From Clostridiales bacterium (GTDB lineage: Bacteria; Bacillota; Clostridia; UBA1381), in contig JAQXXM010000042.1 of the NCBI GenBank assembly GCA_029226065.1, positions 1-54,292 of the forward strand: a stretch of 54,292 bases of DNA, read 5' to 3'. The translations under genes and the position numbers were made by a program. The notes under the pieces were generated by a model that had not been told where the DNA came from, made no database searches, and saw only the letters and a program-made list of their open reading frames with translations. Each line of letters opens with the position of its first letter. Position 1 is the stretch's first letter. This document shows positions 12,323-20,791 of the stretch, piece after piece.

Positions 12323-13714
12323 TTAACTGTCTACACCAACAGGTATTTTTGAAATTTCTTTTTTATATAGACGTTTATAGAAGAACAAGCTCATGCTTAT
12401 TGCAAACGCCTCTGCAACTAAAAATGACCACCATACATAAGTTACATTATTACCCATAGCTTTGCCTATAAGTGCAAGCACAAACGCACTTGGCAGCAGA
12501 ACGAACAGCTGTCTTACAAGCGATACCATCATACTGTAAACGCTATGTCCAAGTGCCTGAAACAGTGACGACAGCACAATTGCACAACCTGCAAACGGGA
12601 AACATACACATACTATTCTCAATGCCGGGACTCCGATTGACAGCATGTGCTCAGATGCATCAAACATCAAAAGCAATTTGTCGGGTATCCACTCGATTAC
12701 GAGTGCACCAAGAAGCATTAACGATACTGCATAAATGACGCTGTATTTAACTGTACTCATCATACGTGTGCGGTTTTGCGCACCGTAGTTATATGCAACT
12801 ATAGGTACCATACCGTTGTTAAGTCCGAACACAGGCATAAATACAATACTGTTTATCTTAAAGTACACACCGAATACCGCAACGGCTGTTGACGAAAACC
12901 AAATAAGAATTTTATTTAATGAGAATGTCATTACCGAGCCTATCGCCTGCATTATCATTGACGGCACACCTACTGCAAGAATTGTCTTTATTGCTCCTGC
13001 ATCAGGTCTGAATTTCTTAAAATTGATCGAAATATCATGATTTAGCTTAATATTAAATATACAAGCTAAAATTGCCGCTACCCACTGACCGAGTACGGTA
13101 GCAAGTGCCGCACCCAATACTCCCATTTTAGGGAATCCGCATAAACCGAAAATCAGTATCGGGTCGAAAATAATATTTATTATTGCACCCAATGTCTGTG
13201 TTATCATACTGTAGAATGTTCGTCCCGTAGAAATCAACAGACGTTCAAAAAGCATCTGAGCAAACATTCCTAACGAGCATACCAGAATACACGTCAGATA
13301 TTCTACACCGTACTGCGTTATAGGCGAAGATACATCACCCGTCTGAAAAACATAAAACGGCTTTACGGCAAATAATCCTATCAGCAAAAATATTATGTAT
13401 GCTATCAGTCCCAAAAGCAATCCGCTTGTTGCCGCAAGCGATGCCATCTTTCTGTTTTTCTCGCCCAGTGAACGTGAAAGCAGTGCATTTATACCTACGC
13501 CAATACCTCCTGCCGCCGCAACAATGAGCGTCTGCATTGAAAAAGCCATGGAAACGGCTGTCAGAGCATCTTCGCATATTTTCGCAACAAATATACTGTC
13601 TACTACATTATATAATGCCTGAATAAGCATTGAAATCATCATCGGTAAAGACATTGAAATCAACAGCTTATTTACAGGCATACTGCCCATTTTATTGGCA
13701 CCTGTTTTTTTCAT
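12323..13714 (-). CDS. MATE family efflux transporter
   Basis: 12-TM protein; MSLPMMISMLIQALYNVVDSIFVAKICEDALTAVSMAFSMQTLIVAAAGGIGVGINALLSRSLGEKN. Confidence 0.93.
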   Translation of the reverse strand: MKKTGANKMGSMPVNKLLISMSLPMMISMLIQALYNVVDSIFVAKICEDALTAVSMAFSMQTLIVAAAGGIGVGINALLSRSLGEKNRKMASLAATSGLLLGLIAYIIFLLIGLFAVKPFYVFQTGDVSSPITQYGVEYLTCILVCSLGMFAQMLFERLLISTGRTFYSMITQTLGAIINIIFDPILIFGLCGFPKMGVLGAALATVLGQWVAAILACIFNIKLNHDISINFKKFRPDAGAIKTILAVGVPSMIMQAIGSVMTFSLNKILIWFSSTAVAVFGVYFKINSIVFMPVFGLNNGMVPIVAYNYGAQNRTRMMSTVKYSVIYAVSLMLLGALVIEWIPDKLLLMFDASEHMLSIGVPALRIVCVCFPFAGCAIVLSSLFQALGHSVYSMMVSLVRQLFVLLPSAFVLALIGKAMGNNVTYVWWSFLVAEAFAISMSLFFYKRLYKKEISKIPVGVDS

Positions 13715-17150: not shown

Positions 17151-17179
17151 ATTATAGCACAACTTTATTTTTATTTCAA
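17151..17179 (-). promoter_or_regulatory. hisZ promoter
   Basis: Minus strand TTGAAA-N17-TATAAT. Confidence 0.75.
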
Positions 17180-17241
17180 GATAAATTTGAAAAAAACATA
17201 TTAGAATGTCTGTATTTGTCAAACATATGTTACATAAAAAA

Positions 17242-17328: not shown

Positions 17329-18684
17329 TTAGTGTTGCGCATCAAGCCACTCTTTCATTTCATGCGGCTGCCATTTTTTACTTCTGTACATTACGTATTC
17401 CATTATACCCTCTGCCAGCCACGACACAATCCAGCCGATAAACATACCGTATATTCCAAATTTCATAATGGTCAGAATGCTGACCGCCATTCTTACGAAA
17501 GAGCCGAATGCCGTACATACAACCAAGAATTTCAATGCGCTTACTCCACGGAAGAACGCATGGAATAAATTATTTATCAGGTTCAATAATATAAACGGCA
17601 GACACATCCTGCAAAAATCTACCACATAATTAAACGCAGTTCCCATATCCCCTTTCGGAAAAAACAACGCCGCTACGGATGGTGCGTAAAATATGCAGAT
17701 AATCAAGGTAGGTGCAGCAAAAACTGTTCCTTGTAACAAAGCTGTTCTTACCGCTTTTGCTACGTTTTTATATTTTCTTGCACCCATACACTGTGCCGCA
17801 TAATTACTCAGAACTTTAGACGAATTTTGGTACATTGAAGCATTTAGATCGTAAATTTTCAAAATGACGGTGTAAGCTGCGGTTGCGGCACTACCGATAC
17901 CATTTACAAACGGCGAAATACACGCCGATGACAAATACATAACGATCTGCTGCACCATAACTGCTGTTGAACTTGCAAAGGCATCCTTTATATATGAAAA
18001 TCCCGGTTTTACACGTTGATTTAACACGCCCATTTTCTTAAAACATATATATATCTTTACAATATAGCATACAAGCGCTATTCCCGAAACCGCAACCGTT
18101 ACGACTGCAAGCCCTATGACACCCATCTTCAGCACTGCAATTGCAAATATATTTCCAACAATGTTCATTATTGCAGACATAACAGATATACAAAAAGGAA
18201 ACGTACTTATACCAAACGCATTCATAATATATGTTCCGATCAGATTTGATACAATCACAAAAAGTCCGCCTATGTAAACAGCAAAATACCGATATGCATC
18301 CCCACGAATCGAATGGTCTACATTAAGAACATCAAAAATCCGCTCATGAAAGCATAGCACTAAAATTATAACAACGGCTGACATAGCAAGCATCGCAAGG
18401 CAATTGCTGTAAATACTTGCTTTAATTTTTTTATATTCACGCGCTCCAAACAAACGGGCAAGGTAAATCGAAAAGCCTGTTCCGTATCCCCAAAATACTG
18501 CTGAAATAAGCTGAATAAACGCCGATGTTGCACCCATTGCCGCAAGGCCGTCAGCACCCAAAAATTTACCCGCAATTATAGTGTCTACCGTATTGTATGC
18601 TTGATTCAGCAATCCCGCAAGCACCATCGGAACAGCAAATATTATGAATGTTTTGTACAAGTTATTTTTTGTCAGATCTTTCAT
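17329..18684 (-). CDS. MATE family efflux transporter (DeoR-linked)
   Basis: Multi-TM; FIIFAVPMVLAGLLNQAYNTVDTIIAGKFLGADGLAAMGATSAFIQLISAVFWGYGTGFSIYLARLFGARE. Confidence 0.93.
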   Translation of the reverse strand: MKDLTKNNLYKTFIIFAVPMVLAGLLNQAYNTVDTIIAGKFLGADGLAAMGATSAFIQLISAVFWGYGTGFSIYLARLFGAREYKKIKASIYSNCLAMLAMSAVVIILVLCFHERIFDVLNVDHSIRGDAYRYFAVYIGGLFVIVSNLIGTYIMNAFGISTFPFCISVMSAIMNIVGNIFAIAVLKMGVIGLAVVTVAVSGIALVCYIVKIYICFKKMGVLNQRVKPGFSYIKDAFASSTAVMVQQIVMYLSSACISPFVNGIGSAATAAYTVILKIYDLNASMYQNSSKVLSNYAAQCMGARKYKNVAKAVRTALLQGTVFAAPTLIICIFYAPSVAALFFPKGDMGTAFNYVVDFCRMCLPFILLNLINNLFHAFFRGVSALKFLVVCTAFGSFVRMAVSILTIMKFGIYGMFIGWIVSWLAEGIMEYVMYRSKKWQPHEMKEWLDAQH

Positions 18685-18720
18685 TTTCTACCCCAATTAA
18701 AAAATTGTATATTCTTTCTG

Positions 18721-18748
18721 TTGACATCTTGAATTTTTGTGTTAAAAT
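18721..18748 (+). promoter_or_regulatory. Predicted deoR-family gene promoter
   Basis: TTGACA-N16-TAAAAT. Confidence 0.5.
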
Positions 18749-18749
18749 A

Positions 18750-18778
18750 ATAATATATGATTTTTCAAAATTTGTCAA
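18750..18778 (-). promoter_or_regulatory. Predicted MATE promoter inside 65-bp module copy 1
   Basis: Minus strand TTGACA-N17-TATTAT. Confidence 0.65.
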
Positions 18779-18817
18779 CATAGTTTAAAATAATGAAGAT
18801 TTCTCATAATTTATCAA
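18753..18817 (-). repeat. 65-bp promoter/operator module, copy 1
   Basis: 60/65 identical by eye to the reverse complement of 19667-19731. Confidence 0.9.
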
Positions 18818-18833
18818 AAAGGAGACGAATGAT

Positions 18834-19577
18834 ATGAATAAAAAAGAACGTCTGGATGCTATAATGGAGATCATGAGACGATATAAATATGTAACCGTTA
18901 AATTCCTGACGGAAGAGCTCCATTACAGTACAGCAACGATAAATCGAGATCTTAATTCTCTTATGCGGCAAAAACTGATAACACGAAGCTACGGCGGAGC
19001 GGAGCTTTTGGAAACAAAAAGTATTCCGCTAATGTTCCGCTATCATAAAATGAAGGCTGAAAAAAACAGAATTGCAAAAAAAGCGGCGGAATTTATAAAT
19101 GACGGCGACACAATTTTCATTGACGGATCTACTACCGCACAATATATAGGCCAACATCTTTTTAACAAAAAAAATATTACAGTGATAACAAATAATATTT
19201 ATCTTGTCTCTTTCCTCAGTGAAAACGGCATTGATGCCGTATGTCTCGGCGGGAAAATTTCAGAGCCTCCGAATATGCTTTGCAGCAGTGAAACGATTGA
19301 AAATCTATCGCATTATACGGCGGATAAGTTTTTCTTTTCGACCGTCGGTATAAACGAATACGGTGATATAGTGTCAAGCGATTTATATTTTCTGATGCAT
19401 CGCATTATGGCAAAAAATTCCGCAGAACAGTTTTTTCTTCTTGATCATGGAAAAACACATTGCAAAGCACCGAAAATTCTTTTTTCACTCGATGAAATAT
19501 CGCACTTTATTTCCGATTTTGCACTTCCTGAAAATATCACCGATAAGTTCCCTGACACAACATTTATTACAGTTTAA
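18834..19577 (+). CDS. DeoR/GlpR family transcriptional regulator
   Basis: N-terminal HTH (MNKKERLDAIMEIMRRYKYVTVKFLTEELHYSTATINRDLNSLMRQKLITRSYGGAEL) and DeoR C-terminal sensor (IFIDGSTTAQYIGQHL...VITNN). Confidence 0.93.
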   Translation: MNKKERLDAIMEIMRRYKYVTVKFLTEELHYSTATINRDLNSLMRQKLITRSYGGAELLETKSIPLMFRYHKMKAEKNRIAKKAAEFINDGDTIFIDGSTTAQYIGQHLFNKKNITVITNNIYLVSFLSENGIDAVCLGGKISEPPNMLCSSETIENLSHYTADKFFFSTVGINEYGDIVSSDLYFLMHRIMAKNSAEQFFLLDHGKTHCKAPKILFSLDEISHFISDFALPENITDKFPDTTFITV

Positions 19578-19581
19578 AAAG

Positions 19582-19610
19582 TAACCGTCACCCAAGGCGG
19601 TTATTTTTTA
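19582..19610 (+). terminator. Terminator after deoR-family gene
   Basis: TAACCG-tcacccaagg-CGGTTA-TTTTTT. Confidence 0.7.
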
Positions 19611-19666
19611 TACGAAGCGTGGCAAGCAATGCAAACATATAACAACTACAGACTTTCGAACAAAAC

Positions 19667-19731
19667 TTGATAAATGATGAGAAATCTTCATAATTTTGAA
19701 CTATGTTGACAAATTCCGAAAAATCATATAT
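19667..19731 (+). repeat. 65-bp promoter/operator module, copy 2 (inverted)
   Basis: TTGATAAATGATGAGAAATCTTCATAATTTTGAACTATGTTGACAAATTCCGAAAAATCATATAT; 5 mismatches to reverse complement of copy 1. Confidence 0.9.
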
Positions 19732-19734
19732 CAT
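19706..19734 (+). promoter_or_regulatory. MBL hydrolase promoter inside module copy 2
   Basis: TTGACA-N17-TATCAT. Confidence 0.65.
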
Positions 19735-19780
19735 TACATAAGCATTAATCTTTTTTAAAAGTCAAAGGAGTATTTGACTT

Positions 19781-20608
19781 ATGAAGTTAAAGTATTTAGG
19801 TACAGCAGCCGCAGAAGGCATACCGGGTATATTCTGCAATTGCAGAGTGTGCAGAAATGCACTTGAAGTGAGAGGCAAGGAGATAAAGACACGAAGCCAG
19901 GCTTTAGTTGATGATAAATTGCTTATAGACTTTCCTCCCGATACATATCTACACATATTAAATTATGGTCTTGATTTGCGAAATATTCATCATTGCATCA
20001 TAACCCACAGACATTTCGATCATTTATTCCCAAAAGATTTTTGGTGCAGATTTGATGGGATTGCATATGATATAGACGAAGAGCCATTAAATGTTTATGT
20101 AACAGAAGCCGGGTATAACGAAATATTCAGACAACTTGGAGATCAAGCGAATAATACAAGAGTTAAATTTCACAAGATAGCACCGTTTGAACCGTTTGAT
20201 ATTGAGGATTATCATATAATACCTCTTGCGGCAAATCATGATGCTAACTCTGATCCTGTGATATATATTATTGAAAAGGGCGAAAAATCTTTACTTTATG
20301 CAAACGACACAGGTATTTTCCCCAAAGGCACATGGGAGTACCTTGCAAAGTACAATAAAAAATTCAACTTAGTGTCGCTTGATTGTACAGGAATGGCACA
20401 AAAATGCTGGAGAGATACTCATTTGAGCCTTGATACTGACAAAGAAGTATATGACAGGCTTGTTGAAATGGGATTATGTGACAGCAATACAATTGCATAT
20501 GTCAATCATTTCAGCCATAATGGACAGCTTACTCATAAAGAACTTGTAGTTGAAGCGGAAAAATATGGATTTTTAGCTACATACGATGGACTGGATGTTG
20601 AGTTTTAA
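19781..20608 (+). CDS. MBL-fold metallo-hydrolase (PhnP-like)
   Basis: MKLKYLGTAAAEGIPGIFCNCRVC..., HRHFDH, NHDA, YANDTG. Confidence 0.88.
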   Translation: MKLKYLGTAAAEGIPGIFCNCRVCRNALEVRGKEIKTRSQALVDDKLLIDFPPDTYLHILNYGLDLRNIHHCIITHRHFDHLFPKDFWCRFDGIAYDIDEEPLNVYVTEAGYNEIFRQLGDQANNTRVKFHKIAPFEPFDIEDYHIIPLAANHDANSDPVIYIIEKGEKSLLYANDTGIFPKGTWEYLAKYNKKFNLVSLDCTGMAQKCWRDTHLSLDTDKEVYDRLVEMGLCDSNTIAYVNHFSHNGQLTHKELVVEAEKYGFLATYDGLDVEF

Positions 20609-20710: not shown

Positions 20711-20761
20711 CTATATATTTAACTGTCAAATACTAATTTTTTTCAAGATAAATCCGAAAAA

Positions 20762-20791
20762 AGCTTGGTTTGCATAAATCCAAACCAAGCT
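20762..20791 (-). terminator. Terminator of rpsF-ssb-rpsR
   Basis: AGCTTGGTTTG/CAAACCAAGCT followed by T6 on minus strand. Confidence 0.85.

Follow-up and report, generated by a model that had tools for sequence, protein, structure and literature searches.

A DeoR-family regulator gene and the divergently transcribed gene of a MATE-family exporter appear, from sequence evidence, to form a conserved local regulon in this Clostridiales genome. The operators would be arrays of 10-bp direct repeats, and a gene for a metallo-beta-lactamase (MBL)-fold hydrolase on the other side of the regulator gene would have been recruited by an inverted copy of the operator-promoter cassette, a reading that we hold with fairly high confidence. 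The three genes lie side by side in the window, by which we mean the whole stretch of 54,292 nt analyzed here: the MATE gene on the minus strand (17329-18684; PF01554, E=4e-34), followed on the plus strand by the regulator gene (18834-19577; 247 residues, recognition helix STATINRDLN) and the MBL gene (19781-20608; 275 residues). Support comes from the presence of two copies of the cassette, their repeat architecture, the conservation of the MATE-deoR arrangement, the confinement of the operators to the locus, and the lack of MBL linkage elsewhere in our sample.

The gene identities proposed in a preliminary description of this DNA are upheld by domain searches, which returned MatE in two stretches of the exporter (118.1 bits against a gathering score of 24.9), HTH_DeoR (PF08220; 49.2 against 21 bits) and DeoRC (PF00455; 124 against 31.8 bits) in the regulator, both above their gathering scores, and Lactamase_B_2 (PF12706) in the hydrolase. 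The exporter shares its MatE domains with the NorM/DinF-like MATE proteins and reaches no equivalog model; it falls short of the TIGR00797 subfamily cut-off (128.8 against 147.4 bits), by which model it is a divergent member. The regulator reaches none of the named DeoR equivalogs (GlpR, SrlR, UlaR, AgaR, and DeoR; 102.7 against 331 bits and lower).

A repeat search of the window placed one inverted pair of modules, 70 nt long and 91% identical, around the regulator gene. Module 1 (18748-18817), which carries the operator and MATE promoter on the minus strand, and module 2 (19667-19736), which carries the inverted copy on the plus strand before the MBL gene, agree at 64 of 70 positions in direct alignment. 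Their best 65-mer is identical at 60 of 65 positions, which bears out the earlier claim of reverse-complementary 65-bp modules with five mismatches; shuffled intergenic regions gave at most 35/65. The similarity ends at 70 nt, with none found beyond by the repeat search. The preliminary description had counted an occurrence of the module at many unrelated loci against its proposal. The genome's own assembly (1.84 Mb, 91% complete) contains these two copies and no third, which rules out a dispersed repeat; at that completeness, additional targets of the regulon could be absent from the assembly. No Rfam match to an RNA element was found between 16000 and 22000. Each module is, on its sequence, very probably a DeoR-type operator joined to a promoter.

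Within each module, 10-bp direct repeats of the form TTGAnAAAT start at offsets +0, +10, about +29, +39, and +49. The consensus of the two modules reads TTGATAAAT(T/G) at +0, ATGAGAAATC at +10, TT(A/G)AACTATG at +29, TTGACAAATT at +39, where it contains the -35 box, and (TT/CC)GAAAAATC at +49. In module 1, on the minus strand, site 1 consists of the repeats TTGATAAATT ATGAGAAATC (18798-18817) and site 2 of TTGACAAATT TTGAAAAATC (18759-18778), both with zero mismatches. The starts of the two sites are 39 bp apart, the first repeat of site 2 contains the -35 element of the MATE promoter, and a degenerate third repeat, TTAAACTATG (18779-18788, offset +29), lies in between. Module 2, on the plus strand, repeats this arrangement with site 1 reading TTGATAAATG ATGAGAAATC (19667-19686, zero mismatches), the third repeat TTGAACTATG (19696-19705, offset +29), and site 2 TTGACAAATT CCGAAAAATC (19706-19725, one mismatch). 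Here, too, the first repeat of site 2 contains the -35 element, that of the MBL promoter, and the other half is degraded, having lost its TTGA (CCGAAAAATC). The second repeat opens with A instead of T in both modules.

A genome-wide search for the repeat pair with zero or one mismatch returned the four module sites and one other, a one-mismatch match that sits in coding sequence. With up to two mismatches allowed, the rest of the genome yielded weak sites only, mostly intragenic or single. The local regulon thus appears self-contained at the level of its operators, as had been proposed, in that the clear operator pairs of the genome are the four module sites; the part of that proposal concerning the MBL gene is plausible only. 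Across 13 genomes, zero-mismatch operator matches fall at MATE-deoR loci, with the exception of one isolated site in genome G076 (L151, G076:C171:5009-5028), which lies upstream of a hisZ-like gene and is probably there by chance.

The two outward promoters previously described are also present as claimed. The MATE promoter, TTGACA-N17-TATTAT (18750-18778, minus strand), and the MBL promoter, TTGACA-N17-TATCAT (19706-19734, plus strand), each match the consensus at 11 of 12 positions. Three features were absent from the preliminary description: the repeat structure inside the modules, a promoter for deoR, and a hairpin after deoR. The deoR promoter, TTGACA-N16-TAAAAT (18721-18748, plus strand; 11/12 consensus), stands face to face with the MATE promoter, the two -10 boxes being 1 bp apart, and a similar TTGAC(A/T)-N16/17-TATAAT can be read in the intergenic regions of three related loci (L033, L034, and L118). 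The hairpin (19575-19610, plus strand; -17.2 kcal/mol, z -6.8) is terminator-like and followed by a U tract; it is absent from the list produced by a simple terminator scan. Because of this hairpin and U tract, the MBL gene is probably transcribed from its own promoter.

A search of relatives for conservation of the module found the operator array again at divergent MATE-deoR pairs. Eleven other clostridial loci (L033, L034, L037, L110, and L112-L118) have a MATE gene divergent from deoR, the MATE homologues being 41-47% identical to that of the window. All 11 intergenic regions contain the same repeat array, with 39-40 bp from the first pair to the second and a differing sequence between them. 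The counterpart of module 1 site 1 is conserved in these regions, and the third repeat reads TTGAACATAC or TTGAACGTAC in six relatives. In L037 (sites G068:C136:10551 and 10590) and L117 (sites G136:C12:30195 and 30235), the automatic register took the second site. Because the repeat architecture is kept at 11 loci and direct repeats of 10-11 bp are typical of predicted DeoR-family sites (PMC3870299), these sequences indicate that the MATE gene and deoR constitute a conserved local regulon. The other MATE-deoR loci showed no second module.

Close relatives of the regulator are rare. At a loose threshold, 20 of 70 genomes of the family give a match, and five family genomes besides its own have a match of at least 41% identity across most of the protein. 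Two more relatives were found in the rest of the order and 10 more genomes with one in a class sample (n=391); sampling across the phylum added no close DeoR, and a contig scan with short peptide patterns found none. Within the genus, none of the 15 other genomes has a close DeoR. The nearest regulator (G066, 79%) is truncated by a contig end, which leaves no upstream region to read. In a phylogenetic tree, the regulators with an INRDLN helix form one side of a branch with support 99/97 and pair with TTGAnAA repeats, and most regulators on the other side have an IRRDL helix and TTGATTA repeats. The IRRDL sisters adjoin a transaldolase gene (L035, L120, and L121), a gene for a GlpA-like oxidoreductase (L036), or more distant MATE genes (L111 and L119). 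Because TTGATTA also occurs at the two IRRDL regulators beside MATE genes, the motif tracks the recognition helix and not the gene that lies alongside. Each helix group is one side of a single branch, so this association amounts to one evolutionary contrast.

The MBL gene presents a different picture. Its product is invariant with 19 homologues in THxHxDH (H76, H78, D80, and H81), H153, D176, H243/H246, and C19/C21/C24, and its structural model (pLDDT 89.9) best matches the folds of 6b9v, a PhnP-family diphosphatase, and 3g1p, PhnP itself. The earlier label "PhnP-like" therefore holds for fold and superfamily and fails for the PhnP equivalog, TIGR03307, which the protein misses by a wide margin (61.5 against 272.25 bits). 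With the protein so far below that cut-off, phosphodiesterase activity is a candidate function only. The protein shares its fold, THxHxDH, and CxC..C with PhnP (a phosphoribosyl cyclic phosphodiesterase) and 6b9v but differs from them in having only about 20% identity, in scoring below the PhnP cut-off, and in having no phosphonate genes directly beside it.

The preliminary description regarded the MATE, DeoR, and MBL genes as a new three-gene system, a proposal to which conservation gives no support. No DeoR or MATE gene was found in the fetched flanks of MBL homologues at about 45 distinct loci (27 from a contig search, 15 family places, and further class places), and no paired operator was found upstream of these homologues, the best matches having at least three mismatches, as in shuffles. 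Because the MBL gene is unlinked to MATE and deoR in all other loci examined, the trio stands, so far, as one isolated instance. The closest MBL homologue, 81% identical, comes from another family of the class, and the best full-length homologue in the genome's own family is 52% identical; a close DeoR is absent from the genome of L040, whose MBL has, by match statistics, the same sequence as the closest homologue. Because the neighbors of MBL homologues vary (glycoside hydrolases, a GntP permease, an ADP-ribosylglycohydrolase, radical SAM, and housekeeping genes), they allow no functional conclusion. The simplest reading of these sequences is that the MBL gene was added in this lineage and has a foreign or patchy origin.

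We consider that the MBL gene is probably under DeoR control by way of the inverted copy of the MATE operator-promoter. Co-regulation by DeoR would then have two levels of support, being well supported by the sequences for MATE and deoR and plausible for the MBL gene. An alternative, which we judge unlikely though the strongest of those considered, is that module 2 is a relic of copying, the MBL gene being expressed constitutively or in a way that does not matter to the DeoR system. The linkage of MBL in one genome only and the loss of TTGA from half of module 2 site 2 would fit a relic, but module 2 retains an intact site 1, third repeat, and complete promoter, and the similarity of the modules goes no further than the operator-promoter unit, as expected if selection keeps the unit.

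We propose that DeoR, probably as an oligomer, binds the arrays of TTGAnAAAT repeats in the MATE-deoR intergenic region. Occupation of the +39/+49 pair would make the -35 box inaccessible, and additional binding at the +0/+10 pair would stabilize the complex, as expected of an oligomeric regulator. Repression of the MATE gene is expected because one repeat pair overlaps the -35 box of its promoter and the other starts 39 bp upstream, and self-repression of deoR is expected because the deoR promoter, which faces that of MATE, has the module 1 sites a short way downstream. Both binding and a repressing rather than activating role are inferred. It is also possible, if somewhat less likely than the relic just discussed, that DeoR binds the modules and acts mainly as an activator or in a dual role, with the upstream site recruiting polymerase and the -35-overlapping site limiting it. 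Activators also use positions such as that of site 1, whose start lies 39 bp ahead of the -35 box; in addition, the DeoR family includes activators (the regulator matches the L-fucose operon activator model). However, site 2 coincides with the -35 box, the -10 and -35 elements are near enough to consensus (11/12) to make an activator unnecessary, and DeoR-family sites in Caldicellulosiruptor bescii, which lie over promoters or in 5'UTRs, suggest repression (PMC8579813).

The signal that would release the proposed repressor can be considered from the AlphaFold model of DeoR (pLDDT 91.7). Its best fold match is the sensor domain of Escherichia coli DeoR (7l6l), the next being ribose-5-phosphate isomerases (RpiA), and residues 97-101, DGSTT, are compatible with a phosphate loop. 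Given these matches and this motif, the model suggests a phosphorylated sugar or polyol as the likely effector, which would free the repressor and thereby induce export. The mechanism would further have the operator-promoter cassette copied across deoR, in inverted orientation, to a position before an unrelated PhnP-like MBL gene, adding that gene to the DeoR regulon. The exporter and the hydrolase may act on related compounds; that one effector co-induces export and processing of the same metabolite, as first suggested, is conjecture.

The inverted arms could instead be read as a switch, with recombination flipping the 0.85-kb deoR segment off its promoter. The arms bracket deoR exactly, and the deoR promoter (18721-18748) lies almost wholly outside the left arm. 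This reading is nevertheless very improbable: the arms, which have 6 mismatches in 70 positions, offer little length for homologous recombination, no recombinase was identified adjoining them, a second module was not seen elsewhere among the MATE-deoR loci, and operator and promoter function fully accounts for their resemblance. That the modules, as two near-identical AT-rich copies, come from some mobile or repeated element with no relation to DeoR is effectively refuted by the copy number of two in the genome and opposed by the corresponding operators that distant genomes carry in the same position.

The trio is flanked by a 26-nt direct repeat whose membership in the system is uncertain. 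The left copy (17170-17195, plus strand) overlaps the predicted -35 of a promoter toward the his genes, and the right copy (20737-20762, plus strand) lies just 3' of the rpsR-operon terminator. The two copies agree at 23 of 26 positions, shuffles of both flanks reached at most 20 (60 trials), and the assembly contains the core of the repeat exactly twice. The two copies may be the marks of an insertion, with the rpsR-operon terminator on one side and the his promoter on the other. An empty site was sought in the family loci read; because rpsR has other neighbors in relatives and is followed by hisZ in none of them, none was shown. A bolder view, to which we give little credence, is that the three genes moved horizontally as one compact unit in which a phosphosugar-sensing DeoR would run a "hydrolyze and export" response from a portable cassette placed on a foreign hydrolase, a theme that unrelated phosphoesterases at other MATE-deoR loci (PHP at L037, GDPD at L119, and HAD at L110) would echo.

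Overall, the window locus resembles the local sugar regulons of the DeoR/GlpR family (RhaR, FruR, UxaR, and AxgR), with which it has in common the HTH_DeoR and DeoRC domains, a divergent target, and 10-11-bp direct-repeat operators over a promoter (PMC3870299, PMC8579813). Predicted motifs of the DeoR-family regulator RhaR consist of two imperfect direct repeats with a 10-11 bp periodicity (PMC3870299), and the window locus has such repeats at the sequence level. Its targets, in contrast, are an exporter and a hydrolase and not a catabolic operon, and its operator-promoter unit is duplicated and inverted on both sides of the regulator. The IRRDL sisters (L035, L120, L121, and L036) are 41-45% identical to the window's regulator and have a divergent layout and similar repeat spacing but differ in their TTGATTA repeat, their IRRDL helix, and their sugar- or glycerol-phosphate enzyme targets. 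No DeoR-type regulator of a MATE gene was found in the papers searched, and the MATE-deoR pair would be a new local example of a familiar kind of regulon, undescribed in those papers. A defined operator for a clostridial DeoR-MATE regulon makes the effector and the exporter substrate testable, and the locus would illustrate cleanly how a gene can join a regulon through the copying of a complete operator-promoter unit and not by point mutation.

Several neighboring genes deserve mention in their own right. A second MATE gene (12323-13714; PF01554, E=5e-49) occupies the far end of the his gene cluster, 3.6 kb away from the first, and lacks the operator. A PHP domain gene lies 15 bp downstream of MATE in L037 (4146-6344), a GDPD gene lies downstream of deoR in L119 (5970-7647), and a HAD phosphatase gene is convergent with MATE in L110 (2202-4392); each placement may be chance. 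The transaldolase gene divergent from the TTGATTA-type sister DeoR in L035, L120, and L121 is apparently part of another conserved local regulon.
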